DNA from: Gammaproteobacteria bacterium
GTDB taxonomy: Bacteria > Pseudomonadota > Gammaproteobacteria > JAUZRS01
Assembly (NCBI GenBank): GCA_030949385.1
Contig: JAUZSP010000002.1
Coordinates: 122,501 to 186,500 of the forward strand
Direction of reading: 5' to 3'
DNA length: 64,000 bases
The notes beneath the pieces are model-generated. The model was not told the origin of the DNA and searched no databases. It saw nothing but the letters and a program-made list of their open reading frames with translations. A program made the position numbers and the translations under genes. Shown piece by piece: positions 13,059 through 30,403 of this stretch. Numbering within the stretch: the stretch's first letter is position 1; each line of letters starts with the position of its first letter.

Positions 13059-14318
13059 TTACCGTTTATCTGTTTTTAGTCTCTTGGTCAGGTTAACCAC
13101 CTCTGCCCCCTGTTTGACTCCACCGGCCTTTAGAATGAAATCGGTTATACGTTGCATCGGTTCCCGTAGCCGCTCCACGTCCATGATGATATAACCGGCT
13201 GTCACGTCACCCCCGCTTTTGTGGTTGAGCAGTCGCTTAAGGGCGTAGGCTGGAATGTCCAAGCTTTCAGCAATCGTGATAAACGTCCGTCGTAGATCGT
13301 GAATGGTGAAGGGTACGCCGCTCTGCTTTGTCACCTTCTGCAACCACCGCTTGGGTTCCACCAAGTAACCGCCCTTACCGTCACCGGCAAAGACGTAGCG
13401 TGAGCCGTTGGCTTGCTCTTTCCTTTGGCTTAAAAGCTGGTGCAGGTAGTCCGATAGGGGCAGCTCATGGGTGTGGCGGTTTTTGGTGTCCCTGATGGTG
13501 ATCGTCTTACCCTGTAGATCCACGTCACACCACGGCAACCGTGCCGCTTCTTCACGTCGTAAGCCGGTGAGGATCAACAACAGCAGGTAATCACGCACCA
13601 CATCGGCCTTACTGGTGGGCTGTTCGGGCTTTAGGGTCAAAACAGCCCTGAACCATTGGGGGAGCTGTTCCGGCCTGATAAGCGTCTGTTTGCGTTCGAC
13701 TCGATACCACGACCGCGTGGCAGACAGTCGCCGCGTGGGGTTGTCGGTAATGATGGGGCTACCGTCTGCCTTCTCATACTTGCCAATGGCAAAGTTAAAC
13801 AGCGCCCTAAGCACCCTCATGGACTTATTGGCGCTGGTGGGGCTGCTTTCTCCCATCTGGCCGTGGCGTTTCTCCACCATGTTGCGGGTGATTGAGGTAA
13901 TGGGCTTGCTCTGCCAATCACTGAAAGCCAAGCGCAGCACCTTGGCGTAGTCGTCCACGGTGCGGGGTTTTAGGTCACGGCTTGCCATGTAATCCTGATA
14001 GACGGTCGCTAAGGTCACTCTAAGCGCCTTTCTGTTGATCCGTTCCGCTACAACGTCCCGACCGCTGGCAAACTGCCCTATAACCTCTCTTGCCCGTTTA
14101 CGGGCATCTTTCAGGCTTAAGGCAGGGTGCTTGCCAAGCGTAACCCGCCTTGATCGACCGTTTACCCATGACTCGACGATAAACGCCTTAGAACCGCCTG
14201 TAGTGACTCGCAAGGCCAAGCCCTTAAGCATCGTATCCCTTACGAACAGTTGACCCTGTTCAGGCGCTTCTATGGCGTTTACTTGGTGAGCGGTCAGTTC
14301 TTTGTGGATGGTTGCCAT
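13059..14318 (-). CDS. int: P4-type tyrosine recombinase integrase
   Basis: The 419-residue protein has an N-terminal DUF4102/arm-binding domain (residues 1-90: LRVTTGGSKAFIVESWVNGR, VTLGKHPALSLKDARKRARE), a core-binding SAM-like domain (about 105-200) and a catalytic domain. The catalytic residues are visible: R254 in TGLRREE, H340 and R343 in HDLRRTF, H366 in LLNHK, and Y376 in TAGYI. It should catalyse site-specific integration into and excision from the tRNA-Thr gene. It lies next to the right att site, as usual for this family. Confidence 0.96.
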   Translation of the reverse strand: MATIHKELTAHQVNAIEAPEQGQLFVRDTMLKGLALRVTTGGSKAFIVESWVNGRSRRVTLGKHPALSLKDARKRAREVIGQFASGRDVVAERINRKALRVTLATVYQDYMASRDLKPRTVDDYAKVLRLAFSDWQSKPITSITRNMVEKRHGQMGESSPTSANKSMRVLRALFNFAIGKYEKADGSPIITDNPTRRLSATRSWYRVERKQTLIRPEQLPQWFRAVLTLKPEQPTSKADVVRDYLLLLILTGLRREEAARLPWCDVDLQGKTITIRDTKNRHTHELPLSDYLHQLLSQRKEQANGSRYVFAGDGKGGYLVEPKRWLQKVTKQSGVPFTIHDLRRTFITIAESLDIPAYALKRLLNHKSGGDVTAGYIIMDVERLREPMQRITDFILKAGGVKQGAEVVNLTKRLKTDKR

Positions 14319-18101: not shown

Positions 18102-19520
18102 CTACACCACGGTAAATTGCCCCATCATGCCACGATCTTCGTGTTCCAAAATATGGCAATGGAACATGTAAGGCGCGCTGGCATCGGTGGTGTAATCGGT
18201 CATTTTAATCACCACTTTGACTCGTTCATTGGGGCTTAGACGTACCGTATCTTTGTAGCCTTTTTCATATTCCGCGACGTTATTGGCAGAACCGTTGCGT
18301 TCGATGATCTGAAAGTGGGTGGCGTGGGTGTGGAAGTTGTGGGTCATGCCCATCGCGTTGCGAATTTCCCAAATTTCCACCTCGTCCAAGTTCATGCTGT
18401 GGTCAATGCGCGCCATGCTCATGGCTTTACCGTTAATGGCAAAACTGCCGTTCATGCCACCGATGCGTTCCAATACAAAAGGACGAGTGCGTACTGCGGT
18501 TGCTGGGTCAAGGGACGTTAAGGCGGTGAGTTGAGCTGGAACGGCGGTGATGTTGCCGGCGGTTTTGTTGACGTTCAGAGTCAGTAGAGGGGTGTTGCCG
18601 TTATTGGCGTCTTGCAGGGTGAGGGTTTGGCCTTGTAACTGACTTAGATCGACAACGATCTCCGCCCGTTCAGCGGGGCTGAGGGTGATGGAAGTTAAGT
18701 TGAGCGGCGTTTCACGAAAGGCGTTGTCGGTGGCAATCTGTTTAAAGCTCGCGCCGTTGCTCAGTTTGAGCCGATAAACGCGCGCATTGGAGGCGTTGAG
18801 AATGCGAAAACGCACCTCTTTGTTCGGCAGGTCGAGGTAGGGGTTGACGGTGCCGTTGATCATAAAGGTGTCGCCCAACATGCCGTGCATGGCATCACGC
18901 CTGCTGGGAAGGTAGTTAAAACTGCCGTTGGCGTTGAATTTACGGTCTTGAATAATGAGTGGAAAATCGTCTTCGGCCCAGGTCTTGGGCAGATCCAGTG
19001 CATCGCTTTCGGTGTCTTCGACGATCATCATGCCCGCTAAACCTCGATAGACTTGCTCGCCGGTTTTGTTGTGGGTGTGAGAGTGATACCAGTTGGTGCA
19101 GGCTTTTTGTTTGACGGTAAAACTCGGCTGCCAGAGGCCACCAGATGCAATGGCTTGGTGGGGGCCGCCGTCGGCGCTGCCAGGTACATGCATGCCGTGC
19201 CAATGCAGGGTGGCGGTTTCAGCCAAATTATTACGCACATTGAAATTGACCGTGTCGCCGTTACGGACTTTGATTACAGGGCCTAAAAAATCGGCGTTGA
19301 TGCCAAAAGTGGGGGTGCTGAGACCGGCAATAAATTCACGGCTGCCGTTTTGTAAATTGAGATCAAACTGGGTTCCGGTTAACAATTGAGGCATGCGGAG
19401 GGGTTTTAATGCTCCCGTGTTGGCGTTGACAGTGCCGGTGTTGTGATTGCCCATTTTACAGCCCATTAGAGGGAGGCTTACCGCAGCAGCGGAGGCGAAT
19501 AAAAAATCTCTGCGTTTCAT
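18102..19520 (-). CDS. Tat-exported multicopper oxidase 1
   Basis: This is a 472-residue three-cupredoxin multicopper oxidase (CotA/CueO/FtsP family). The ATG at 19520 follows AAGGAAAC. The Tat-like leader MKRRDFLFASAAAVSLPLMGC has a lipobox-like Cys, so it may be a Tat lipoprotein. Copper ligands are HWHGMH, WYHSHTH, HNFHTHATH and the C-terminal HCHILEHEDRGMMG (type 1 and trinuclear centre). It should couple one-electron oxidation of a metal or organic substrate to O2 reduction. It is closely related to the next gene upstream (19612-21024), a tandem duplicate, and has no promoter like that of its neighbour, so it is probably cotranscribed. Confidence 0.92.
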   Translation of the reverse strand: MKRRDFLFASAAAVSLPLMGCKMGNHNTGTVNANTGALKPLRMPQLLTGTQFDLNLQNGSREFIAGLSTPTFGINADFLGPVIKVRNGDTVNFNVRNNLAETATLHWHGMHVPGSADGGPHQAIASGGLWQPSFTVKQKACTNWYHSHTHNKTGEQVYRGLAGMMIVEDTESDALDLPKTWAEDDFPLIIQDRKFNANGSFNYLPSRRDAMHGMLGDTFMINGTVNPYLDLPNKEVRFRILNASNARVYRLKLSNGASFKQIATDNAFRETPLNLTSITLSPAERAEIVVDLSQLQGQTLTLQDANNGNTPLLTLNVNKTAGNITAVPAQLTALTSLDPATAVRTRPFVLERIGGMNGSFAINGKAMSMARIDHSMNLDEVEIWEIRNAMGMTHNFHTHATHFQIIERNGSANNVAEYEKGYKDTVRLSPNERVKVVIKMTDYTTDASAPYMFHCHILEHEDRGMMGQFTVV

Positions 19521-19611: not shown

Positions 19612-21024
19612 TTATGCTACGGTGAACTGCCCCATCATGCCACGATCTTCGTGTTCCAAAATATGGCAATGGAACATGTAAGGGGTGCTGGCATCGGCGG
19701 TGTAATCGGTCATTTTGACCACCACTTTGACGCTGTCATTGGGGTTAAGCAAAACGGTGTCTTTGTAGCCTTTTTCATATTCCAATACGTTGGCGGCGGA
19801 ACCGTTACGTTCGATGATCTGGAAATGAGTCGCATGGGAGTGGAAGTTGTGCGTCATTCCCATGGTGTTGGTGATCTCCCAGATCTCCACTTCGTTTAAG
19901 GTCATGGCGTGGTCGATGCGTGTCATGTCCATTGAGACGCCGTTGATGGAAAACAATCCCCGAGTGCGACCTAAGACAAAAGGACGGGTGCGCACAGCAG
20001 CCGTTGGGTCAAGGGGCGTTAAGGTGGTGAGTTGAGCTGGGACGCGGGTGATGCTGCTGGCGGCTTTATTGACATTGAGGGTAAGCAGCACGGTGTCGTT
20101 GTTATTGGCGTCTTGCAGGGTCAAGGTCTGGCCTTGTAAGTTGCTCAGATCCACCACAATCTCCACTCGTTCAGCGGGGCTGACGGTGATGGAGGTGAGA
20201 CTGAGCGGTGTTTCACGAAAAGCGTTGTCGGTGGCAATTTGTTTGAAGGCATCACCGTTGCTCAGACGCAGTTGATAGACGCGTGCGTTGGAGGCATTGA
20301 GAATGCGAAAACGCACCTCTTTGTTCGGCAGATCCACAATGGGGTCGATGCTGCCATTGATCATAAAGGTGTCACCCATCATGCCCCGCATGGCGTCTTG
20401 TTGGGTTGGTAGGTAACTAAAACTGCCATCGGTGTTGAATTTTCGATCTTGAATAATCAGGGGGAAATCGTCTTCGGCCCAGCTTTTGGGCAGGTCAAGT
20501 GCGTCACTTTCCGCGTCTTCCACAATCATCATACCGGCCAGACCGCGATAAACCTGCTCGCCGGTTTTGTTGTGGGTGTGAGAGTGAAACCAGTTGGTAG
20601 CAGCAGCTTGATTGATGGTGAAGCTCGGTTGCCAGAGACCACCTGGAAGAATCTCTTGATGCGGGCCGCCATCGACGTTGCCAGGTACGTGCATGCCATG
20701 CCAGTGCAGGGTGGCAGCCTCGGTTAGAGTGTTGCGGACATTGAAGTTGACGGTATCGCCGTTGCGGACTTTGATTACGGGGCCGAGGTAGTTGCTGTTG
20801 ATGCCAAAGGTGGGGGTGCTGGTACCGGCGATAAATTCCATACTGCCCGTTTGCAAGTTGAGATCGAACTGGGTGCCGGTGAGCAGTTGTGGCATGCGCA
20901 AGGGGGTTTGTGTGCTGGTGTTGCCACCCGTGTTTGTGGTGTTTGTGGTGGAGCTGCTACTACAGCCCATCAGTGGCAAGCTTAGGGCGGCACCGGATGC
21001 CAATAAAAATGTTCTGCGGTTCAT
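19612..21024 (-). CDS. Tat-exported multicopper oxidase 2
   Basis: The 470-residue protein is very similar to the oxidase at 18102-19520 along its whole length. The leader MNRRTFLLASGAALSLPLMGC carries a twin-Arg motif and lipobox-like Cys, followed by a Ser/Thr/Asn-rich linker. Copper motifs are HWHGMH, WFHSHTH, HNFHSHATH and HCHILEHEDRGMMG. A GTCAAC-N17-CGA promoter (21076-21104) and a Crp-like site (21141-21156) precede it, shared with the cytochrome and the third oxidase. The substrate is unknown. Confidence 0.93.
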   Translation of the reverse strand: MNRRTFLLASGAALSLPLMGCSSSSTTNTTNTGGNTSTQTPLRMPQLLTGTQFDLNLQTGSMEFIAGTSTPTFGINSNYLGPVIKVRNGDTVNFNVRNTLTEAATLHWHGMHVPGNVDGGPHQEILPGGLWQPSFTINQAAATNWFHSHTHNKTGEQVYRGLAGMMIVEDAESDALDLPKSWAEDDFPLIIQDRKFNTDGSFSYLPTQQDAMRGMMGDTFMINGSIDPIVDLPNKEVRFRILNASNARVYQLRLSNGDAFKQIATDNAFRETPLSLTSITVSPAERVEIVVDLSNLQGQTLTLQDANNNDTVLLTLNVNKAASSITRVPAQLTTLTPLDPTAAVRTRPFVLGRTRGLFSINGVSMDMTRIDHAMTLNEVEIWEITNTMGMTHNFHSHATHFQIIERNGSAANVLEYEKGYKDTVLLNPNDSVKVVVKMTDYTADASTPYMFHCHILEHEDRGMMGQFTVA

Positions 21025-21075: not shown

Positions 21076-21104
21076 ATGTCGTTATGGGTGGTGAGTAGGT
21101 TGAC
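21076..21104 (-). promoter_or_regulatory. Predicted ECF-type promoter of oxidase 2
   Basis: On the minus strand, TGTCAACC is followed after 17 bp by CGACAT. The same arrangement lies before the ECF sigma gene (29674-29702), the cytochrome (26936-26964) and oxidase 3 (24977-25006). Recognition by the sigma factor encoded at 29092-29628 is inferred. Confidence 0.65.
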
Positions 21105-21140
21105 ATAAGAAGCATGGGCTTGCTTCTTGATGCTGATAAT

Positions 21141-21156
21141 TGTGATGCTTGTCACA
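21141..21156. promoter_or_regulatory. Crp/Vfr-like binding site
   Basis: TGTGATGCTTGTCACA is a perfect TGTGA-N6-TCACA site. Its centre is 47 bp upstream of the middle of the GTCAAC box of the oxidase 2 promoter. The Crp homologue at 29765-30403 keeps the recognition-helix residues for this sequence. Confidence 0.7.
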
Positions 21157-21191
21157 AAAAAGGCGAGTAGAGGGTAGGGGGTGATGCGATC

Positions 21192-21219
21192 TTGACTTGA
21201 CCGACTGGTCAACTATAAT
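21192..21219 (+). promoter_or_regulatory. tetR promoter with overlapping operator
   Basis: TTGACT (21192-21197) and TATAAT (21214-21219) are 16 bp apart. The imperfect palindrome TTGACCGACTGGTCAA (21197-21212) fills the spacer. A near copy lies before tusA at 21854-21869. Autorepression by the TetR protein starting at 21228 is inferred. Confidence 0.75.
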
Positions 21220-21227
21220 TCTTAACC

Positions 21228-21836
21228 ATGAGAACTTCTGCTGCTTTTGATACCCGAGACCGCATTTTGCTGGCGGCGCGCGAGCTGTTTCACAGTAGCA
21301 GTTATGCTGATATTGGCATTAAACAGATCTGTGATATGGCTCAGGTGAAAAAAGGCAGCTTCTATCATTTTTTCCCTTCCAAACGCGATTTGGCGTTGTC
21401 GGTGATCGACAACATGGCCGAAGAGTGGGCTAATGGTTTTATTCGGGAGGCGTTTGACTCTCTTTTGCCACCAATGGAGCGTCTAGATTATTTGGTTGAG
21501 GGAGCTTATTACTGGCAAAAAGCCACTAAGGATATTGATGGGCGTATGCCCGGTTGTCTGTTTGGTAATCTGGCCTTGGAAGTGAGTACACGCGATGACG
21601 TGTTGCGTACCAGATTGAGCGCGGTGTTTGAAAAAATCCAAAGGAAGTTTGCGCAGACGCTGGTTGAAGCGGTGCAGACTTCGGCCATTGAGCCACTGAA
21701 TACAGACTTAACCGCGCAAGCGATGTTGGCCTATCTTGAAGGCATTATCTTGTTGGCGAAGTCCCGTAACGACCCTGATGTGATTCAACAGTTGGGAGGG
21801 GCAATTAAATCCATTCGTATTGAAAACAGCGATTAA
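21228..21836 (+). CDS. TetR-family transcriptional repressor
   Basis: This 202-residue regulator has an N-terminal TetR helix-turn-helix, DRILLAARELFHSSSYADIG then IKQICDMAQVKKGSFYHFFPSKRDLALSVI in part. The C-terminal domain (CLFGNLALEVSTRDDVLRTRLSAVF) resembles the TetR_C subgroup found in AcuR/NemR-like regulators, which respond to electrophiles. It has a probable operator in its own promoter and a second one before the downstream tusA-like gene, so both are likely repressed together. It diverges from oxidase 2 with a 203-bp gap. Confidence 0.9.
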   Translation: MRTSAAFDTRDRILLAARELFHSSSYADIGIKQICDMAQVKKGSFYHFFPSKRDLALSVIDNMAEEWANGFIREAFDSLLPPMERLDYLVEGAYYWQKATKDIDGRMPGCLFGNLALEVSTRDDVLRTRLSAVFEKIQRKFAQTLVEAVQTSAIEPLNTDLTAQAMLAYLEGIILLAKSRNDPDVIQQLGGAIKSIRIENSD

Positions 21837-21853
21837 AAATTTGTGTACCAATA

Positions 21854-21869
21854 TTGACTGACCGGTCAA
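21854..21869 (+). promoter_or_regulatory. Second TetR operator, upstream of the TusA-like gene
   Basis: TTGACTGACCGGTCAA matches the tetR-promoter operator in 14 of 16 positions, and both are followed by CTAT. It lies 26 bp before the tusA-like start codon. Confidence 0.7.
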
Positions 21870-21894
21870 CTATTGTTTGTGTAAGGAGGTCATT

Positions 21895-22137
21895 ATGAGT
21901 TATGAAGTTAAGCAAACTCTGGATGCCAGAGGTCTGAATTGTCCTTTGCCTATTATGCGTACCAAAACGGCGATGGCCAATCTCAAAAGTAGAGATGTGC
22001 TTGAGGTGTTGACTACCGATCCAGGATCGTTGAAGGACATCGAGTCATTTTGTGTGCAGACGGGGCATGAATTGTTGCTTCGAACCCAGTCGCGGGAAGA
22101 TTTTATTTTTCATATTCGCAAATATAAAGAGGGATGA
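21895..22137 (+). CDS. TusA-family sulfur carrier protein
   Basis: The protein has 80 residues with the TusA signature LDARGLNCPLPIMRTKTAM (catalytic Cys in CPLP). TusA-like proteins carry persulfide sulfur in tRNA thiolation, or in oxidative dissimilation of reduced sulfur. A strong AAGGAGGT lies before the ATG. It is controlled with the tetR gene by two matching operators, which suggests an inducible sulfur or electrophile response rather than the housekeeping tRNA role. A strong bidirectional terminator follows. Confidence 0.9.
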   Translation: MSYEVKQTLDARGLNCPLPIMRTKTAMANLKSRDVLEVLTTDPGSLKDIESFCVQTGHELLLRTQSREDFIFHIRKYKEG

Positions 22138-22221
22138 ATACGGCAGAAAAAAGGGTTACGTGGATATGGATGTGAATTTTTTTATTTGATGAAGTAAAAA
22201 TAGATGGTTTTTTGTGAGAAA

Positions 22222-22259
22222 AAATAAACCCCAGCAAATCAATTTTCTGGGGTTTATTT
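22222..22259. terminator. Bidirectional terminator between tusA-like gene and oxidase 3
   Basis: A perfect 13-bp stem (AAATAAACCCCAG / CTGGGGTTTATTT) has a 12-base loop, with A-rich and T-rich flanks on both strands. It lies between two convergent genes. Confidence 0.9.
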
Positions 22260-22269
22260 GTTTTAGGTG

Positions 22270-24927
22270 TTACATACCTCCCATGCCACCGCCTTGGTTG
22301 CCCATATTACCCATGCCGCCCATACCACCTTGAGCACCACCGGCTTGGTTCGGCATACCGCCACCCATGTTACCCATACCGCCTTGAGTGCCGCCGTTAT
22401 TGATGGCCGACTCACCGACAGGAACGGTTTCACCGGGAGCGAGGACTTTGAACATGCCCATCATGCCTGCGTCTTCATGTTCTAAAATATGGCAGTGGTA
22501 CATGTAGTCACCGACGTTGACCGGCTCAAATTGGCCGATAAAGCGCACAGTCTGACCAGGTTGAACCAGTACGGTGTCTTTCCAACCGAGGTCTGCACCA
22601 CTGGCGGCAACGCCATTGCGATCCAAGATCTGCCATTGAATGGCGTGAGCGTGGAAAGGGTGAGCCATGGGAGACATATTACGAATCTCCCAGATTTCGC
22701 TGGCGTTGGCGGTGACGTATTCGTCAATGCGGGTCATATCGAAGCTTTTGCCGTTGATGGTAAAGCTCATGCCGCCCTGATTTCCAGTGCCACCTTGGTT
22801 GCCCATGCCGCCGCCTTGACCGCCCATCATGCTCATCACAAAGCTGCGGGTGGTGCTGATGGTGGCTGGATCAATGCGGGTATTGATTTCAGCATTGGCA
22901 GGCAGTTGTGCGTAGAGAGTGATGTCATCCACCTCTTGACGAGCGATGTCAAAGCGCATGATGTCCAGAGCTGCGCCATTTTGAATGCCGCCGCCTTGGT
23001 TGCCGCCGCCCATACCACCGCCCATTGCTCCCATCATGCCGTTGCTGAAAGGTTTGCTGATTAACATCACTTTGTCGCCAACGGTAAAGCTGGAAAAATC
23101 AATGACGATTTCAGCCCGTTCTGCGGCACCGAGAGTGAGGCTGGTCATGGAGACCGGTGCAGGTAACAGACCGCCATCGGTGGCGATTTGCATGAAGCGT
23201 GCGCCGTTACTGAGAGCAAATTCGTAGCTGCGAGCGTTAGAAACGTTGTAGAGGCGGAAACGATACTGGCGAGTGGCCACTTCGAATTTTGGCAATTCAA
23301 CGCCGTTGACTAAGACCACATCGCCGTACATACCGGCTTGGTCTTGAGGTTTATCCATATAGAGCAGATCCCGTTGTCCAGTGCCATTGTCGGCGGCAAA
23401 ACGACGGTCTTGCACCATCAAAGGAATATCAAAAGCACCGCTGGGCAGTTCTTTATTCGTCTCTAAGCCTAGGCTAATGGCATCTTCAATGATGAACGCT
23501 CCGGCCAGACCGTAATAGACTTGATGTGCGGTACGTTTGTGTGGGTGGGGATGGAACCAGAGCGAAGCCGCCGGTTGATCAATAGTGAAATCGTATTGAT
23601 GGCTGCCACCGGTGAGGATGGGGATGTCAGGGTTGCCGTCTTGAATGGCGGGGATTTTGAAGCCATGCCAGTGAATGGTGCTCTCTTCGGCCAGATTGTT
23701 GTTCAGCGTCAGGGTCATTACGTCACCCCGTTGAGCGCGAATCAGCGGTGGCAGAGCGGAGTTGTTGTAACGCATCATTGGTGTGACCCAACTGCCGTTG
23801 GGGGTGTCGATGGTGACGTTGACGTTGTTGCTGGCGGTGAAGGTGTAGGTGGCTTTGCCGTCGTTGGCCACGCCGTCTTCATCGGTCATCACCGGCAGGT
23901 GTTTGAAGGCAGGTAGAGTGGTGGCGGCCAACAGAACCTGTGTGGTTTGCACTGCATCTTGGTTCTGCTGCTGAGTCTGCTGTTGATTCTGTTGCAAAAC
24001 AGCGGGGTCAATGCCCATTTGTGAGGCAAGTTGTTCTTGTTCAGCGGCAGAGAGATTGCCGCTGCTGAGACGGCCAATGGTGCTTTGCAGCAGTTGTCCA
24101 CGGGCTTGACCGTAGTTGGTGCGCTGGTCTTCTTGATCCAGTGCAACCACGGAGTTTTGGGTGTCCGTCGGAGTGATTGCCAGAGGAGTGCCCTGAGCAA
24201 CACCGTCAAGGCTGCCGTCTTTCAAGTCTTCAGCGCGTTTTTGGATCAGTTCAAAGACCTGTTCTGGTGAAAGGCCGAGGTTGCGGGTTTCATAGGAGAA
24301 GGAGATGGCGCGGTTGCGAGCCAAAGCTTCGCTGTTGTTGGCTGGCAGGGCGGTAGTGAGATTGCCGGTACGCAAAATCGTATCGCTGTTGGCCATAATG
24401 CCTGTGGGTTCGGTGCCTTGCAGCAATTGGGCTTCGATTAACGTTTTGGCATCATCAATGGCTTGTTGAGGCGTGCTGCCAGCAGCCATTTTGCTGCGGG
24501 CTAATTCAGCCAACAGAGTGGTCTCTGGGGTCAGGGTTATGAACTCATTGTTGGCCAAGATGGCCATCAGCTCGGCTTTGCTAAAGACCGCTTGCAGACC
24601 TTGTTGCAGGTTTAAGTTGGCGGTTTGGCTGGTGGCTTCATCAGTGTAGCTGCCACCAGAACTTTTAATAAAGATGACATCCGGTAGGGTGTTGAGGCCG
24701 GGCATGGTGAAGGTGCCGTTGCTGCTCTGTACGTCAGAAATGACATTTCCTTGTCCGTCCATGAGTTGAATTTGAGCCGCATCAATGGGGCCTTTAAAGA
24801 CGCTGCCTTGCAGGGTTGTGATGCTGCTGAGTGGGTCGGTGGCGCTCGATGTACTGCCACCACAGGCGGTCAGTAAGGTGGCCCCGGTGCTCAATCCGAT
24901 GAGCAGTGCTAAGGTTTTTAATTTCAT
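22270..24927 (-). CDS. Large lipoprotein multicopper oxidase 3 with N-terminal extension
   Basis: This is an 885-residue protein from the ATG at 24927 (AGGAGC upstream). The lipoprotein leader ends LLTACGG. Residues about 40-330 form an extension with a carboxypeptidase-regulatory-like start (LQGSVFKGPIDAAQIQLMDG) and a Gln-rich helical linker (LQQNQQQTQQQNQDA). A three-domain oxidase follows, with ligands TIHWHGF, WFHPHPHKR, HPFHAHAIQW and HCHILEHEDAGMMG. Two Met/Gly/Asn-rich segments, one inside the oxidase and one as the C-terminal tail (GGMGNMGGGM-like), may bind copper. An ECF-type promoter and Crp-like site precede it. The substrate is unknown; extracellular or surface metal oxidation is a plausible inference. 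Confidence 0.92.
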   Translation of the reverse strand: MKLKTLALLIGLSTGATLLTACGGSTSSATDPLSSITTLQGSVFKGPIDAAQIQLMDGQGNVISDVQSSNGTFTMPGLNTLPDVIFIKSSGGSYTDEATSQTANLNLQQGLQAVFSKAELMAILANNEFITLTPETTLLAELARSKMAAGSTPQQAIDDAKTLIEAQLLQGTEPTGIMANSDTILRTGNLTTALPANNSEALARNRAISFSYETRNLGLSPEQVFELIQKRAEDLKDGSLDGVAQGTPLAITPTDTQNSVVALDQEDQRTNYGQARGQLLQSTIGRLSSGNLSAAEQEQLASQMGIDPAVLQQNQQQTQQQNQDAVQTTQVLLAATTLPAFKHLPVMTDEDGVANDGKATYTFTASNNVNVTIDTPNGSWVTPMMRYNNSALPPLIRAQRGDVMTLTLNNNLAEESTIHWHGFKIPAIQDGNPDIPILTGGSHQYDFTIDQPAASLWFHPHPHKRTAHQVYYGLAGAFIIEDAISLGLETNKELPSGAFDIPLMVQDRRFAADNGTGQRDLLYMDKPQDQAGMYGDVVLVNGVELPKFEVATRQYRFRLYNVSNARSYEFALSNGARFMQIATDGGLLPAPVSMTSLTLGAAERAEIVIDFSSFTVGDKVMLISKPFSNGMMGAMGGGMGGGNQGGGIQNGAALDIMRFDIARQEVDDITLYAQLPANAEINTRIDPATISTTRSFVMSMMGGQGGGMGNQGGTGNQGGMSFTINGKSFDMTRIDEYVTANASEIWEIRNMSPMAHPFHAHAIQWQILDRNGVAASGADLGWKDTVLVQPGQTVRFIGQFEPVNVGDYMYHCHILEHEDAGMMGMFKVLAPGETVPVGESAINNGGTQGGMGNMGGGMPNQAGGAQGGMGGMGNMGNQGGGMGGM

Positions 24928-24976
24928 TGTGTCGCTCCTGATGAAATAGTTTGAGATGTCTCTATGTTCCCCCCTT

Positions 24977-25006
24977 ACATCGTGATGAGGGGGGCGAGGG
25001 GTTGAC
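24977..25006 (-). promoter_or_regulatory. Predicted ECF-type promoter of oxidase 3
   Basis: On the minus strand TGTCAACC is followed after 18 bp by CGATGT, matching the other three sites of the cluster except for one extra spacer base. Confidence 0.62.
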
Positions 25007-25041
25007 ATAAAAAGATGCTTTTTTTTGTGCTTGTTAAAAAA

Positions 25042-25057
25042 TGTGACTTATGTCACG
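25042..25057. promoter_or_regulatory. Crp/Vfr-like binding site before oxidase 3
   Basis: TGTGACTTATGTCACG has nine of ten consensus bases in the two half-sites. The centre is 46 bp upstream of the GTCAAC box. It overlaps the stop codon of the cytochrome gene. Confidence 0.65.
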
Positions 25058-26927
25058 CAAGATGGCCGTTGCGTTTTCGGTGCAGCCAAAGATTTGCACT
25101 TAAAAAAAGCAGCAATAGGGGGCTGAGTGAACCGCCATTTTGAGTCTTATTACTGGTGCTGGATACGGTTGTCTCCGTATTGGCTGTTGGCGAAGGCGAA
25201 GGCGTAGGTGTAGATGTAGATACGATGACATTGATAGGGTCTGCGGCAGTGGGAAGTGTGTTGTTTATTGTTGCATTGAGGGTGGCCAGTGTTTCAGAGC
25301 GCAGCGTGGCGGGGTCTTCAAAATAGGCTTGAAAGGTGGCGACTTCGGGCAAGCTGGCGCTGTCAGAAAACATCTCCTGTAGATGCCCATAAGCGAGAGG
25401 TTGGTAATTTAGTTCTACGTCAATGGTGGCAGAGGTTGCTTGTTTGAGGTCAATGCGGTAGGTGAGCGTGTCGCTGCCGAGGTTGAAATTGGCATCATCG
25501 AAGGCGGCTCCTTTGACGGCAACGTCGTTAGAGACGCTCATTTTATCAAACCCACTTGGGGTTAAGCGGTTGTCTTTGATGTACGCGGCTGCTCGTAACA
25601 AGGTGTGGGTCACATTGCCATCGCTGTTTTGCATCACGGGTTCGTAAATTTGCACCTGATCTTCAGAGCTGATGAGGTCGTAGTGAGGTTCGTAGCGGGA
25701 AGGGTTGATGTCCATGTCGTTGCCAACAATGCTGCCATTGGGGTTGACACGCCCTGATTCAAATAAGAGCGTTCCTTGTTCGTCTCTGGCGACCAGATGA
25801 AGAAACGCACGGCGAGAGGGGTAGGAGGTGGGTAATTTGTGACCGCTGTTGTTGATGACTTTGATGCTTAAATTAAGCTGATTATTGTCGATCTTTGCAG
25901 AGATCAATTGCAGTTCTGCTGAAGACTGTAACAGTGTTCGAGCATCGGCGATGGCACGATCAAAACCGATCGCAGTGACGCTGAGGGCACTGCGATTGCG
26001 GTCTAAAATATCCAACATGACCGTATTTGCGCCGACAAACGTATGTTGGGAAAAGTTAGGTCGATTGGGCAGGTTGCGTGGGCGATTGGCAATTTTGACA
26101 CTGCCCTCCACTTGGGGCATGTGGCAGGATTGGCAATTTTCTTCTTTCACTCCCCCCGTGCGGTAAGCGCTGCTTTTCCATTCGCTGTACACCATCTGCT
26201 CAGGAAACTCAGACTCTGGGGTGGTGCTGACCATATTGCCTTGCCCATCCACAAAAGGTGTTTTTAGATCGTGGCAACTGGCACAGAGTTCGGAACTGCT
26301 GGTGTGGGCGCTGTATTGAGGGGTGAACTGCACATTGTTGCGCATGGGGCCGGTTTGTGGATTGAGGTACTGAGCGTAGATAGGCCGATCCACAGGGTTG
26401 GCAGATTCAGGGATGGTGTATTTTCCAGAAACGCCTTCTAGGGTTCCAAGGAGGCCGTTATCGGCAATTTGGTGGCATAAGGTGCAACTGACCCCGTTGA
26501 GCGCATGGTCGTAGTAGGGGTTGTTGGGATTCAGAAAGCCGTTGCCGAGTATCTCTGGTGCCACCCCTGCTTTTTTTGCTGCTTCATTGGCCATTGGGGT
26601 GTGGCAGCGCGAGCATTTATCGTTGATTTCATCGGATAAGTTGGGGTTTCGGTGCAGTTCGGAGGCGACTTTGGCAAGCCAGTAGGGGTCGCGTGAGGCG
26701 TTGGCCATCATGCTGGTGGACCAGTTTTTGACGATGGAAATATCGTTGTTTTGGTTATCGGTTAGGTTGTCATGACAGGTGGCACAATTGCCTGAGCCGC
26801 TAAAATGAGGGTCGCTAAATTTATCGTTAGCGGCGGCGGCAGCAGCGTTTGATATGAAAAAGGGCAGTGTGAGAAGGCCAATAACGGCGGTGATTTTATG
26901 CATGAGGAGGATCCAATAGAATGACAT
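25053..26927 (-). CDS. Secreted multiheme cytochrome c (five CXXCH)
   Basis: The 624-residue protein has a signal peptide (to about residue 32) and five heme c motifs: CATCH 48-52, CSRCH 105-109, CTLCH 148-152, CASCH 215-219, CQSCH 265-269. The C-terminal half (about 330-570) is beta-rich without hemes. The end, after a Ser/Thr/Pro linker, is GGSLSPLLLLFLSANLWLHRKR. This Gly-Gly plus hydrophobic helix plus basic cluster is like a GlyGly-CTERM sorting signal. Such cytochromes pass electrons across or at the cell surface. ATG at 26903 is an alternative start. It has its own ECF-type promoter and Crp-like site. Confidence 0.9.
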   Translation of the reverse strand: MSFYWILLMHKITAVIGLLTLPFFISNAAAAAANDKFSDPHFSGSGNCATCHDNLTDNQNNDISIVKNWSTSMMANASRDPYWLAKVASELHRNPNLSDEINDKCSRCHTPMANEAAKKAGVAPEILGNGFLNPNNPYYDHALNGVSCTLCHQIADNGLLGTLEGVSGKYTIPESANPVDRPIYAQYLNPQTGPMRNNVQFTPQYSAHTSSSELCASCHDLKTPFVDGQGNMVSTTPESEFPEQMVYSEWKSSAYRTGGVKEENCQSCHMPQVEGSVKIANRPRNLPNRPNFSQHTFVGANTVMLDILDRNRSALSVTAIGFDRAIADARTLLQSSAELQLISAKIDNNQLNLSIKVINNSGHKLPTSYPSRRAFLHLVARDEQGTLLFESGRVNPNGSIVGNDMDINPSRYEPHYDLISSEDQVQIYEPVMQNSDGNVTHTLLRAAAYIKDNRLTPSGFDKMSVSNDVAVKGAAFDDANFNLGSDTLTYRIDLKQATSATIDVELNYQPLAYGHLQEMFSDSASLPEVATFQAYFEDPATLRSETLATLNATINNTLPTAADPINVIVSTSTPTPSPSPTANTETTVSSTSNKTQNGGSLSPLLLLFLSANLWLHRKRNGHLA

Positions 26928-26935
26928 TGCCCCCC

Positions 26936-26964
26936 TTATCGTAATGATGATGGAGGGCGTTGAC
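26936..26964 (-). promoter_or_regulatory. Predicted ECF-type promoter of the cytochrome gene
   Basis: On the minus strand GGTCAACG is followed after 17 bp by CGATAA, the same -10-like box as before the sigma gene (both TCATTACGATAA). The box lies only about ten bases before the annotated ATG, so a very short leader or the downstream start at 26903 may be used. Confidence 0.65.
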
Positions 26965-27000
26965 CTATGGGGGCTTATTTTTTTGTGATCGGTTCTTTTA

Positions 27001-27016
27001 TGTGATGACAGTCACG
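27001..27016. promoter_or_regulatory. Crp/Vfr-like binding site before the cytochrome gene
   Basis: TGTGATGACAGTCACG matches TGTGA-N6-TCACA in nine of ten bases. Its centre is 47 bp upstream of the GTCAAC box, the same spacing as for oxidase 2. Confidence 0.65.
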
Positions 27017-27041
27017 TTTTAGAGTGAACTCTTGAGTTGAA

Positions 27042-27932
27042 TTAAAAACTGAGGCGCAGGGCGAGTGCCGCATTAAGCAGGGTGTTGGCGGTGGTGTTGC
27101 TGGGTTGGTAGCGCCCTGTGGTGAGTGAGCCGCTAAGGTGCCACTGTGAGGCAAGAGGGTACTGGGCATCGACGGTGAGCAGTTGATAGGTGTCGTTTAG
27201 TTGCTCCTGAGTGTTTGGGTAGCGGTTTTTGAGCCACTGAAGCGAGAGGTTGCCTTGCAGTTTATACCACTGCCATTGGCCGTAACTGAGGCTCAGTTGC
27301 TGCTGCTTGCTGTTGTAAAAGGGGGTGGATGCATTGAATTGTTGTAGGGTGATGGCGGCAGCCCAACGGGCGCGGTTGGAGGGCGCGGCGAAATAGTAGA
27401 CGCTGCTCAGTTGGTAGCGTTGACCCTCATAGCTGCCGCTGGGGTTTTGATTGTAGCGTCGCTGTTGCAGGGCTAGATTAAGATCCAGACCGCTGCCGCT
27501 GTCGGCAAAATACCCCCAGGTCTGATCCAGACTCAGGCTCTGGTAGCTGTTGGCGGGTTGTTGCTGGTGGGTGTAATGGTTGGCGTTCAGTTGGGTGCGT
27601 GAGAGCCAGTGTGGGCTGAGCGCCAACAGCGTTTGTCCTTGTAGGGTGAGTTGGCGTAGGTCGGCGTTTTTTTTCTCCAGCGCACGGTCTTGATCGGCGT
27701 AAAGGCTGGCGCTGAGGCCGCCGTCCTTGTTGAGTTTTTGCCAGTGGCCTGCCAAGGAAAGTTGCACGCCGAGACGTGTTTGATCGGCGCTGTTGGTGAG
27801 ATTATTTTGTTGTGTGGGCAGAGAATTGTCGTTGAGCGTCAGCCCTGTCTCCAGTTGTAGGTGACTTTGTGCCAATAGGCTTGTTGGGGGAGCTAGGAAG
27901 AGCAGTAGGATCGATTGTTTGTAAAGTGTCAA
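27042..27932 (-). CDS. Outer-membrane beta-barrel protein
   Basis: The 296-residue protein has a signal peptide ending SLLAQ, followed by many alternating amphipathic strands rich in Gln, Tyr, Leu and Ser. The C-terminus is LNAALALRLSF; a final Phe is the usual outer-membrane barrel signal. It could form a porin-like conduit for the cytochrome or act as an anchor, but that is inference. The ATG overlaps the stop of the DUF3106-like gene by four bases, so it belongs to the sigma-factor operon. Confidence 0.78.
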   Translation of the reverse strand: MTLYKQSILLLFLAPPTSLLAQSHLQLETGLTLNDNSLPTQQNNLTNSADQTRLGVQLSLAGHWQKLNKDGGLSASLYADQDRALEKKNADLRQLTLQGQTLLALSPHWLSRTQLNANHYTHQQQPANSYQSLSLDQTWGYFADSGSGLDLNLALQQRRYNQNPSGSYEGQRYQLSSVYYFAAPSNRARWAAAITLQQFNASTPFYNSKQQQLSLSYGQWQWYKLQGNLSLQWLKNRYPNTQEQLNDTYQLLTVDAQYPLASQWHLSGSLTTGRYQPSNTTANTLLNAALALRLSF

Positions 27933-28537
27933 GGCTGGTCTCTTCCCATGTTGGGTCTGTTGGAGGCGTTGCCGTTGCTGCTGGAGCCCATGGGCATGTC
28001 GCTGGGTGACATGGTTCCCATTTGCTGTCGCATTTGATCTCGGTTCAGACGGCTTATGCCACCTTCGGGGTGGGGTGGCATGTTTTGATGTGTATCGCTC
28101 ATACCACCGCCAGGGTGGTGGCTGTTGCGATGTTGGAACTGCTGAAAACGGTGCATCATCTGATGCTGTTGTTGTTCGTTGAGGTTATGAAAACGTTGGT
28201 GGCTTTGCAACAGTTTTTGGCGCTCCCTTGTGGGTAGGGTTTTAAAGCGTTGATAGTTTTTCTGCATCAGCTGTTGTTTGGCCATAGGCAGTGACTGCCA
28301 ACGCTGGTAGCGCTTCCAGAGTGTGGTGCGTTTTTCACTGGGCAAGGAGAGCCATTTTTTGCTTAACCCCATCAGTTGTTGACGGCGGTTTTCGGCTAAA
28401 TTGGGCCACTGCTGTTCCATGCTTGCCAATAAACGCCGTGATTCTTTGGGCAGCTCATTCCAATCGGTTGCAGCAAACACAGTGGGTGAGGTCAGCAGCA
28501 GTAACAACAGTGTGAGGAGACTGTTTTTATTTTTCAT
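27929..28537 (-). CDS. DUF3106-like periplasmic protein
   Basis: This is a 202-residue product from the ATG at 28537, which has AGGAGA upstream. After the signal peptide it contains repeated Trp/Leu-rich helical units of the type 'W-x-x-L-x-x-x-x-R-x-x-L' (LPKESRRLLASMEQQWPNLA, GLSKKWLSLPSEKRTTLWKR and similar), which is the DUF3106 pattern. The tail is rich in His, Met, Pro and Gly (HHPGGGMSDTH), possibly metal-binding. DUF3106 genes commonly sit with an ECF sigma factor and DUF3619 in other proteobacteria, as here. Confidence 0.8.
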   Translation of the reverse strand: MKNKNSLLTLLLLLLTSPTVFAATDWNELPKESRRLLASMEQQWPNLAENRRQQLMGLSKKWLSLPSEKRTTLWKRYQRWQSLPMAKQQLMQKNYQRFKTLPTRERQKLLQSHQRFHNLNEQQQHQMMHRFQQFQHRNSHHPGGGMSDTHQNMPPHPEGGISRLNRDQMRQQMGTMSPSDMPMGSSSNGNASNRPNMGRDQP

Positions 28538-28733
28538 TGTCTTCTCCTGTGCTGTTCTCTGCTGCGTTAGGAATCTGTAACAGCGCTTGAATCTGTTCAT
28601 CGGAGAGCTCCAACAGCATGGGCAGTTGGTTTAAAAATGCTTCGGGCAGAGCATCGGGTGCCGTTTCTGCGCTCCACGCGAGGCTGCTGACGAACAGGCT
28701 CAGCAGACAAAGACGGATGATGGGGCGTTTCAT
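28527..28733 (-). CDS. Small secreted hypothetical protein
   Basis: The product has 68 residues with a clear signal peptide (IIRLCLLSLFVSSLAWS). A short acidic mature part, LPEAFLNQLPMLLELSDEQI then QALLQIPN, resembles one unit of the neighbouring DUF3106-like protein. Its stop overlaps that gene's start region by 11 bases. It may be a small companion in the same operon. Confidence 0.65.
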   Translation of the reverse strand: MKRPIIRLCLLSLFVSSLAWSAETAPDALPEAFLNQLPMLLELSDEQIQALLQIPNAAENSTGEDNEK

Positions 28734-28760
28734 AACAGATCCTGTTCATTTTTTTATTCG

Positions 28761-29108
28761 CTAAGCTTGTGGTATTTCGGGCTGTTTGGCCAGCCATTGA
28801 TAAAAATCGGGGTTTTCCAGAAGTTCCATTGGTACCTGTTCGTCACTGAGCCATTCGGGCAGTTGCGCGACGATTTGGCTTTCGGACTCGCTGCTGTTTT
28901 GTAGACTCAGCCAGCCAACCCCGGCGCTGATAAAGAGCAGTGCCGCTGCGGCATAGGCAGGCGGTGGTAGGAGAAACCGTAATGAATTCAAGAACGGTTT
29001 TTTTTCAGCCAACTCCAACGCCTCAAAGGTCATTTGCCGTAGGCGTTGCTGGTGTTTTTCCGCCAGCTTGTGCGCTGATTGGTTGAGTAATTCATTCGCT
29101 TTCTTCAT
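28761..29108 (-). CDS. DUF3619/anti-sigma-like membrane protein
   Basis: This 115-residue protein has a cytosolic N-terminal helix (LAEKHQQRLRQMTFEALELA), one transmembrane helix (YAAAALLFISAGVGWLSL) and a periplasmic end with VPMELLENPDFYQWLAKQPE. The layout and the end motif match DUF3619-type proteins that follow an ECF sigma gene. It overlaps the sigma gene by 17 bases. Holding the sigma factor at the membrane until a signal arrives is the likely role, by analogy with other anti-sigma factors. Confidence 0.75.
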   Translation of the reverse strand: MKKANELLNQSAHKLAEKHQQRLRQMTFEALELAEKKPFLNSLRFLLPPPAYAAAALLFISAGVGWLSLQNSSESESQIVAQLPEWLSDEQVPMELLENPDFYQWLAKQPEIPQA

Positions 29109-29628
29109 TGATCCACTCTCCTAGGGCTTCACGTAAGGCGCTCATGGCGCGAGACAGATGGGTTTTGACACTGCCTTCGCTGCACTCCATTGCAGCAGCG
29201 GTCTGTTTGACGCTAAAGCCGTTCCATTGGCGCAGCAGATAAGCCTCTTGTTGGCGGGTGGGCAGAGTTTGTAGGGCGTGTTGGAATTGTTGTTCCAACT
29301 CCTCGGCTCGGTATTCCAATTCACCACAATGGTGGTCGGCAATTTCTGGCTTGCTCTGTTCATCATCGTGTCCCAGTTGGCCAAAACTGATGATTTGGAT
29401 CAGTTTTTGGCGGCGGTACTGTTTTCGGTGCCAATCGGCAATGCGCCGATTAAGGATTTTGTAGAACAGCCCAGACCAAAAGCTTATTTCATGGTTTTTT
29501 TTGGCTGAAACAAAATCCATCATGGCCTCTTGCAGCAGATCCAGAGCCGTCTCTTCTTGTTTAAGGCGTAATTGGGCGTATTTGAGCGCGGGGGTGCGAA
29601 TGTCTTTTAAAAAGGCATTCAGTGCCAT
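29092..29628 (-). CDS. ECF RNA polymerase sigma factor
   Basis: This is a 178-residue sigma-70 family protein from the ATG at 29628; TTG at 29637 is an alternative. Region 2 is seen in ALKYAQLRLKQEETALDLLQ and FWSGLFYKILNRRIADWHRK. Region 4 is seen in LQTLPTRQQEAYLLRQWNGF and VKQTAAAMECSEGSVKTHLSRAMSALREAL in part (the helix-turn-helix reading the -35 element). Its own promoter region has TGTCAACC-N17-CGATAA, shared with genes of the cluster, so it probably drives itself and the oxidase/cytochrome genes. Confidence 0.92.
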   Translation of the reverse strand: MALNAFLKDIRTPALKYAQLRLKQEETALDLLQEAMMDFVSAKKNHEISFWSGLFYKILNRRIADWHRKQYRRQKLIQIISFGQLGHDDEQSKPEIADHHCGELEYRAEELEQQFQHALQTLPTRQQEAYLLRQWNGFSVKQTAAAMECSEGSVKTHLSRAMSALREALGEWINEESE

Positions 29629-29673
29629 GTCACTCAAAAGGATCTGCTCCGTTAATCTGCCGTTACAACGAGG

Positions 29674-29702
29674 TTATCGTAATGAGAGTGCAATCGGTTG
29701 AC
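29674..29702 (-). promoter_or_regulatory. Predicted autoregulated ECF promoter of the sigma operon
   Basis: On the minus strand TGTCAACC is followed after 17 bp by CGATAA, identical in the -10 area (TCATTACGATAA) to the cytochrome promoter. The predicted start of transcription is about 40 bases before the ATG. No Crp-like site is found upstream of this copy. Confidence 0.65.
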
Positions 29703-29764
29703 AGAGGGGATGAAAAAGAGGTGTAAGCCTTTGCAGAGGGTTCTGCAAAGGTGGGGTGAAGGCG

Positions 29765-30403
29765 TTAGCGGGTGCCAAAGACGACGATGGTTTTGCCGTG
29801 GGCAGTGAGCAGTCCGCGCACTTCCAAATCTTTAAGCACTCGCCCTGCCATTTCTCGTGAACAGCCGACAATGCGCGCCAGCTCTTGGCGGGTGATGCGA
29901 ATCTGCATGCCGTCGGGGTGGGTCATGGCGTCGGGTTCTTTACTCAATTCCATCAGGGTATGAGCAATGCGACCGGAAACGTCCACAAAGGCCAGATCCA
30001 TCACCTTGGCGCTGGTTTTGCGCAGCCGGTCGGCCAGTTGGGAGGCGAGGGCGAAGATGATGTCCGGTGCTTCTTGGCTCATTTTTCGGAAGTGATCGTA
30101 GTTGATCTCCGCCATTTCGCATTGAGTGCGGGCGACTACCCAGGCGCTGCGCTGAGTCTCTTCGTCAAACAGACCCATCTCGCCGAAGAACTCGCCTTTA
30201 TTGAGATAGGCGAGGACGATTTCACGGCCATCCTCATCTTCGATCACTACGCTCACTGAACCCTCAATGATATAGTAGAGCGTATCTGGGGTATCTCCTT
30301 CGTGGATAATGGTCGTTTTGGCTGAATATTGTCGTTTGCGGCTGTGCAGCAGCAGACGTTGTATCCACGGAGTGTCTGGTTTTTGTTTCATTAATTGTGG
30401 CAT
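29765..30403 (-). CDS. crp: Crp/Vfr-family cAMP-responsive regulator
   Basis: This 212-residue Crp-type regulator has a cyclic-nucleotide-binding domain (IIHEGDTPDTLYYIIEGSVS; GEFFGEMGLFDEETQRSAWV with the phosphate-binding Arg-Ser pair). The C-terminal helix-turn-helix is ITRQELARIVGCSREMAGRV, close to E. coli Crp, including the Arg and Glu that read TGTGA. It should bind TGTGA-N6-TCACA, and three such sites lie upstream of the cytochrome and oxidase genes. It is divergent from an OsmC gene, as crp and yhfA are in enterobacteria. Confidence 0.93.
   Translation of the reverse strand: MPQLMKQKPDTPWIQRLLLHSRKRQYSAKTTIIHEGDTPDTLYYIIEGSVSVVIEDEDGREIVLAYLNKGEFFGEMGLFDEETQRSAWVVARTQCEMAEINYDHFRKMSQEAPDIIFALASQLADRLRKTSAKVMDLAFVDVSGRIAHTLMELSKEPDAMTHPDGMQIRITRQELARIVGCSREMAGRVLKDLEVRGLLTAHGKTIVVFGTR

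Follow-up and report, generated by a model that had tools for sequence, protein, structure and literature searches.

The 64,000-nucleotide stretch analysed here (the window; Gammaproteobacteria bacterium, assembly GCA_030949385.1, contig JAUZSP010000002.1, positions 122,501 to 186,500) raises the question of which factor reads four similar promoter-like sites lying in a gene cluster that encodes an extracytoplasmic function (ECF) sigma factor, a c-type cytochrome and several multicopper oxidases (MCOs). On the minus strand, the order is crp, site 1, the sigma gene, the genes of a putative anti-sigma factor, a small secreted protein, a DUF3106 protein and a barrel protein, site 2, the cytochrome gene, site 3 and the gene of MCO1; past MCO1, a tusA-like and a tetR gene are located on the other strand, followed by site 4, MCO2 and MCO3. 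It is quite probable that the four sites are promoters of the local ECF sigma factor, which would control an autoregulated copper/redox regulon of the envelope, gated in this genus by cyclic AMP (cAMP) and the cAMP receptor protein (CRP).

The sigma gene (29092..29637, minus strand) encodes a protein of 181 amino acids containing only regions 2 and 4, as is typical of ECF sigma factors; it matches Pfam Sigma70_r4_2 and, over positions 21-164, the Sigma70_ECF model, and it scores above the TIGR02937 cutoff. It appears to be a diverged PRK09047-like protein, reaching 168 bits with that model (NF006550), just below the curated cutoff of 173, whereas a homologue of the CGTT type described below reaches 204. 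The initial annotation had listed four minus-strand sites formed by GTCAAC, a spacer of 17 or 18 bp and CGA(T/C), and all of them are indeed present, with spacers of 17, 17, 18 and 17 bp: site 1 upstream of the sigma operon (29676..29702, GTCAAC-N17-CGAT), site 2 upstream of the cytochrome gene (26938..26964, GTCAAC-N17-CGAT), site 3 upstream of MCO1 (24979..25006, GTCAAC-N18-CGAT) and site 4 upstream of MCO2, probably serving also MCO3 (21078..21104, GTCAAC-N17-CGAC). The coordinates first given for them included CGAYNN (Y, C or T) and hence ended 2 bp beyond CGAY. The string said to be shared by the first two sites was likewise found, TCATTACGATAA being common to the sigma and cytochrome sites, where the MCO1 site carries TCATCACGATGT and the MCO2 site CCATAACGACAT. 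An AAC-containing -35, a short CG-containing -10 and a fixed spacing upstream of the sigma operon are the features of an autoregulated promoter of the ECF type, and the probable translation starts are located about 27-46 nt downstream of the predicted transcription starts. C-rich and G-rich arms surround the -10 of MCO1 (CCCCCCT...AGGGGGG, 24960-25000) and, roughly, also that of the cytochrome (26930-26960); in the congeneric genome introduced below, the MCO1 arms read CCCTCT...AGAGGG (L033:5170-5205), so that both sides have changed and the pairing has been retained, and they are possibly an operator.

In the window, the loose motif GTCAAC-N16-19-CGAY has 5 matches versus a shuffle mean of 0.75 (at least 5 in 0/100 shuffles); across the 2.87-Mb genome, however, its 31 matches compare with 94 of the reversed-pattern control, and the loose motif was therefore rejected as stand-alone evidence. 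The argument that a GTCAAC with a short -10 is typical of ECF promoters is thus insufficient alone, such a motif being common genome-wide, even though the set of sites as such stands. The tight form GTCAAC-N12/13-CATNACGA has 4 matches in the whole genome, which are the four cluster sites, and its reversed control has 0; it is the bases shared immediately upstream of CGA, and not the initial consensus alone, that carry the claim. Since the tight motif was derived from the same four sites that it retrieves, independent support has to be sought in the conservation in other genomes. In a genome scan at 17-bp spacing allowing up to 3 mismatches, the three N17 cluster sites are on top with 0, 1 and 2 mismatches, and the remaining 7 matches, all with 3 mismatches, are near background (control 5); the same scan with a spacing 1 bp shorter retrieves no cluster site.

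The congener (G001, locus L033, JAUZRS010000122.1; a Gammaproteobacteria metagenome-assembled genome (MAG) titled 12ROV5_HD12-AMOR20) has the same gene order except that the cytochrome is missing, and it has the corresponding sites upstream of sigma (L033:2432), MCO1 (L033:5170) and MCO2 (L033:9033). In its promoters the spacer has diverged and GTCAAC and ACGA are unchanged; when six promoters of the two species are aligned, these two blocks are invariant, together with just three other scattered columns. The order sigma, anti-sigma, small protein, DUF3106, barrel, MCO1 is also seen in other families of the class, with sigma factors that are 51-55% identical, and GTCAACC-N17-CGAT/C precedes the sigma gene and mostly also MCO1 where the contig extends that far, many of the compared genomes being fragmented and contig ends interrupting the cluster in several of them. 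Besides the congener, the sigma site is kept in eight further genomes and the MCO1 site in five, for a total of 20 sites in ten genomes (that of the window, the congener and eight others with the sigma and/or MCO1 site). The pattern TGTCAACC-N15-17-CGATNW, searched across eight whole genomes, gives 11 matches, 9 of which are in these clusters, versus 2 in total for the reversed controls. Because the pair of sites at sigma and MCO1 is kept in families whose sigma is just 51-55% identical, and because paralogous sigma factors of the same family share the -35 but differ in the -10, the initial proposal of an ECF-type promoter set, presumably recognised by the local sigma factor, is supported as the best reading.

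This difference in the -10 was disclosed by comparing the 800 bp upstream of 92 sigma homologues from the class, 12 of them in the MCO-linked clade and 80 outside it. CGAY at N17 is present upstream of 10 of the 12 clade members and of none of the outsiders; conversely, GTCAAC-N16 (in few cases N17)-CGTT (once CGTC), mostly in the form GTCAACC...CGTT, precedes 67 of the 80 outside sigma genes and no clade member, and other four-base words at the same spacing stay at background level. The promoter of the PRK09047-like family, GTCAACC-N16-CGTT, is therefore replaced in the clade by N17-CGAY. The 13 outsiders without a site may have promoters located further away, or diverged ones. Three genomes (G075, G305 and G312) hold both kinds of sigma factor, each with its own promoter type, and in G365 and G010 a CGTT paralogue is found alongside a clade sigma lacking a clean site. 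In the sigma tree the MCO-linked clade is monophyletic (Shimodaira-Hasegawa-like approximate likelihood ratio test, SH-aLRT, 100; stem of 1.47 changes per site), and one change on the tree is enough to explain the promoter label, CGAY versus CGTT. Text searches of the literature for GTCAACC/CGTT returned nothing on the PRK09047-like family. As for the CGTT loci, many of them (L041, L047, L051, L052, L089, L096) contain, upstream of sigma, a stretch encoding (R)LDRKGDRI-type repeats, with the CGTT site about 470-590 bp upstream of sigma; the repeat protein is therefore probably part of the same operon. A GTCAACC-N16-CGTTA in the genome of the window (C10:143203), identical in the congener, was rejected as a promoter, since it is antisense to a PIN/VapC-like frame near a guaA-like gene, and its identity across congeners was taken as coding conservation.

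The amino acid positions that distinguish the clade might account for the switch. Position 46 is Y in 80/80 outsiders and in 0/12 clade members; position 49 is R or K in 73 of the 80 outsiders, and in the clade mostly H or Y and never R or K; position 50 is mostly P outside and mostly D or E in the clade; position 64 is S or N in 72 of the 80 outsiders and R in all 12 clade sequences. Once a CGTT homologue is aligned to M. tuberculosis sigma-H, positions 48-55 correspond to its specificity loop 72-79, and position 64 to N88. It is known that this loop of sigma-H holds the flipped master base and that N88 contacts the preceding base (PMC6411747); moreover, a proposal accompanied by swap evidence holds that loop L3 determines the master base in a modular way, according to the summary in PMC6372665. 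By this alignment, the clade-specific residues are located in and beside the surface that reads the -10. If the register is set by CG, T may have been replaced by A at the position preceding the master base; if it is set by the distance from the -35, the master base itself may have become A. Since the switch is seen once, the clade-specific residues are candidates and not proof. Residue 64 was rejected as the sole determinant of the -10, R64 being present also in some CGTT sigma factors.

As a second feature, three of these promoters carry a CRP-like box whose distance from the core, measured here from its centre to the first G of GTCAAC, is fixed. The box CGTGACTGTCATCACA (27001..27016, minus-strand reading, 1 mismatch) is centred 44.5 bp upstream of the -35 of site 2, CGTGACATAAGTCACA (25042..25057, minus-strand reading, 1 mismatch) 43.5 bp upstream of that of site 3, and TGTGACAAGCATCACA (21141..21156), a perfect consensus with 0 mismatches, 44.5 bp upstream of that of site 4. 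The congeneric promoters of MCO1 and MCO2 carry TGTGAACAGCATCACG (L033:5119) and TGTGTTTTTCATCACA (L033:8981), each with 1 mismatch, at the same distances; TGTGAN6TCACA is thus found at a constant spacing from the core in five promoters, namely 3/3 effector promoters of the window and 2/2 of the congener, and the sigma promoter has no CRP box in either species. The congeneric boxes are orthologous and not independent; their letters differ and the spacing is retained. The chance of such a box within 3 bp in three of the four promoters is about 3e-12, given the base composition of the window, under the assumption of independence and with the place picked afterwards. The candidate reader of the three boxes is encoded by the neighbouring crp gene (29765..30403, minus strand), whose product belongs to the NCBIfam equivalog PRK11753 (339 bits, cutoff 266), and which might bind to them and activate transcription. 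If the -10 is counted as in sigma-H, the centre of the box would be near -79, whereas the classical class I CRP centres are near -61.5, -72 and -82.5; the box would therefore be off the classical places unless the start site differs by a few bases. No worked example of CRP boxes at a fixed spacing on ECF-type promoters was found in the literature searched; in Shewanella, the link between CRP and an ECF/anti-sigma operon is a prediction only (PMC8458880). On the 3' side of crp, the hairpin CCTTTGCAGAACCCTCTGCAAAGG with a T-rich stretch after it (29725-29765), kept in the congener, is probably the crp terminator, located directly before site 1.

What these promoters might serve is suggested by the genes they precede and by those adjoining the sigma genes of relatives. 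MCO1 (22270..24927, minus strand) is a lipoprotein-like, CueO-type oxidase with Gly/Met-rich segments; MCO2 (19612..21024, minus strand), also CueO-type, has a lipobox-like signal, and its paralogue MCO3 (18102..19520, minus strand), which has no motif of its own, is probably co-transcribed with it. All three are closest to CueO and possess the copper-ligand motifs. The DUF3106 protein (27929..28537, minus strand; PF11304), a secreted helical-repeat protein and candidate sensor, ends in a disordered Met/His-rich tail: Met plus His make up 18-33% of the last 60 residues in the clade (six measured) versus 0-12% in 13 outside homologues. Its predicted structure consists of successive helices, each about 15 residues long, and the disordered tail (mean predicted local distance difference test, pLDDT, 70); the model has no fold match in the PDB at E<=0.001, so that a CnrX/ZraP/CpxP fold is not supported. 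The clade sigma gene is adjoined in G365 by CopA (TIGR01480 type, a fragment), CopB and MerR genes, in G010 by a MerR gene and a CusA/CzcA-family resistance-nodulation-division (RND) efflux set, and in G378 by a fragment of a copper-type P-ATPase gene and an MCO gene. Because of the Met/His-rich tails, the CueO-like oxidases and the copper genes beside the sigma genes of relatives, the inducer is likely to be copper or a copper-linked redox stress of the envelope.

The sites might also be ordinary sigma-70 promoters, with an NTGTCA -35 and a TACGAT -10, activated by CRP and not involving the ECF sigma factor. Some of them may be read as matching TTGACA and TATAAT at 4/6 positions, and the CRP boxes are at a class I-like distance; nevertheless, the blocks conserved across families are GTCAAC and CGA rather than T-12, A-11 and T-7, the TA before CGAT is not kept (GCGAT in G211, CCGAT in G312), the motif follows the sigma clade, the paralogues having CGTT, and sites without CRP boxes occur, all of which makes this explanation very unlikely. 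Even less credible, to the point of being almost negligible, is the idea that the motif is not a promoter and represents the operator of a DNA-binding regulator such as TetR or MerR. A tetR gene does lie between MCO1 and MCO2, and the C-rich and G-rich arms surround the -10 at two sites; yet the motif is two-part, non-palindromic and oriented, it is found close upstream of start codons and before sigma genes family-wide, and the palindromes of the TetR type differ from it in sequence.

A more serious alternative, although still rather improbable, accepts the same sigma promoters and assigns them to a regulon for respiration or extracellular electron transfer (metal oxidation), induced by a redox or carbon-starvation signal together with cAMP-CRP. 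It would agree with the five-haem cytochrome having its own site, the beta-barrel, the lipoprotein-like MCOs, the presence of CRP boxes at effectors only and the title of the congeneric MAG (AMOR20, read as Arctic Mid-Ocean Ridge). On the other hand, the cytochrome is missing from the cluster of the congener and none was seen in the other fetched clusters, the conserved parts are Met/His-rich, and in three other genera the clade sigma genes stand beside CopA/CopB, CusA-type and Cu-ATPase genes. The copper/redox regulon under the local sigma factor, which we prefer, has nonetheless to be weighed with several observations that speak against it. All CGAT sigma factors belong to a single clade, so that loop and promoter changed together in one event, which by itself does not prove which of the residues matter. 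Of the 12 clade members, two have no clean site before sigma: in G010 a degenerate GTCAACC...CGAA is found there and no clear site before MCO1, and in G365, where copA-copB-merR precede sigma, there is none. MCO1, MCO2 and MCO3 score 309, 398 and 390 bits, under the cutoff of 525 of the NCBIfam CueO model (PRK10965), and a gene for a five-haem cytochrome is unusual among copper genes. Finally, CRP boxes are seen only in this genus and not at that position in the promoters of other genera (they were consequently rejected as a trait of the whole clade), and the box at 21141 is also upstream of the divergent tetR.

According to the mechanism proposed here, an envelope signal, most likely copper or copper-linked redox stress, would be sensed through the Met/His-rich DUF3106 protein and would free the sigma factor from the putative membrane anti-sigma; the sigma holoenzyme would then start transcription at GTCAAC-N17-CGAT before its own operon, MCO1, MCO2-MCO3 and the cytochrome. 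The sigma operon (sigma, anti-sigma, small secreted protein, sensor-like DUF3106 protein and barrel) would be autoregulated, and at the three effector promoters cAMP-CRP would bind about 44 bp before the -35 and provide a second, metabolic input (an AND-type gate) missing from the autoregulatory promoter. The shift of the clade from GTCAACC-N16-CGTT to CGAT, with a spacer 1 bp longer, would insulate the sigma factor from paralogues in the same cell. On balance, it seems plausible that this is a natural re-specification of an ECF sigma factor, in which the GTCAACC -35 stayed shared, the -10 of the copper-linked clade moved from CGTT (N16) to CGAT (N17) along with the loop and residue 64, paralogues came to be separated by -10 and spacer alone, and one genus added a cAMP-CRP gate at fixed spacing on effector promoters only.

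The remaining genes of the cluster fit around this core. The putative anti-sigma factor (28761..29108, minus strand), identified through synteny in relatives, is a 115-residue protein with a single transmembrane (TM) segment and a conserved periplasmic end, LP(D/E)W(V/L)xDxxVP...FYxWL; its gene overlaps the sigma gene, and family profile searches gave no match for it. It is followed by the small secreted protein p67 (28527..28733, minus strand), with an LP..F..QLP.L motif, and, past DUF3106, by an outer-membrane beta-barrel-like protein (27042..27932, minus strand), suggested by synteny and by a weak OmpG-type match below cutoff. The five-haem c-type cytochrome (25053..26903, minus strand), missing from the corresponding place in the congener (L033:5103-5245), is, as far as the compared genomes indicate, a local addition to the cluster. 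Its promoter, which has a site and a CRP box of its own, looks like that of MCO1 (A-rich stretch, G-run behind the -10), as if it had been copied, and its C-terminus, NGGSLSPLLLLFLSANLWLHRKRNGHLA (25053-25180), looks like a GlyGly-CTERM sorting tail, with Gly-Gly, a hydrophobic stretch and a basic end. The TetR-family gene (21228-21836) is flanked on both sides (21195-21225 and 21845-21875) by TTGACCRGTCRGTCAA-type palindromes, which are probably its own operators, also facing the tusA-like gene. A gene similar to phage-type integrases (13059-14318) is located at a distance of a few kb.

The initial annotation had mentioned neither the CRP boxes nor the copper context, nor the change of the -10 with respect to other members of the sigma family. 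The ECF factors form the most diverse class of sigma factors, and the present case allows a direct test of how relatives are kept from using each other's promoters, with two paralogues that have one -35 in common, two types of -10 and a small number of differing loop residues. DUF3106, a family of unknown function, is assigned to a regulon, with a probable role linked to copper and a candidate role as a sensor; no paper in the literature searched connects this family with a sigma factor. If true, the placement of CRP boxes at a fixed spacing on promoters of the ECF type would be an unusual design with two inputs, joining global metabolism and a local envelope signal.

Among known systems, the PRK09047-like sigma factors with linked DUF3106 (NF006550) share with the window the sigma plus DUF3106 operon, the autoregulatory-looking promoter and the GTCAACC -35; the window system differs in its sigma score, just under the cutoff, in the -10, CGAT at N17 and not CGTT at N16, and in the linked MCO, the barrel and the Met/His-rich DUF3106 tail. 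The effector promoters resemble CRP class I promoters in the TGTGAN6TCACA box upstream of the -35, with the difference that their core is of the ECF type. In CnrYXH of Cupriavidus metallidurans, an ECF sigma factor, a single-TM anti-sigma and a periplasmic helical metal sensor are encoded in one operon, a layout like that of the window cluster; however, homology of DUF3106 to CnrX is unsupported by the structural search described above, and the regulon is different. The nearest functional parallel is CorE of Myxococcus xanthus, a copper-dependent ECF sigma factor that senses copper through its own C-terminal Cys-rich domain and for which no cognate anti-sigma was found (PMC3107203). Like the proposed system, CorE controls a multicopper oxidase and copper genes; unlike CorE, the window sigma ends in ...LGEWINEESE, its Cys 104 and 152 are not in a C-terminal Cys-rich domain, and it is co-encoded with a putative anti-sigma.

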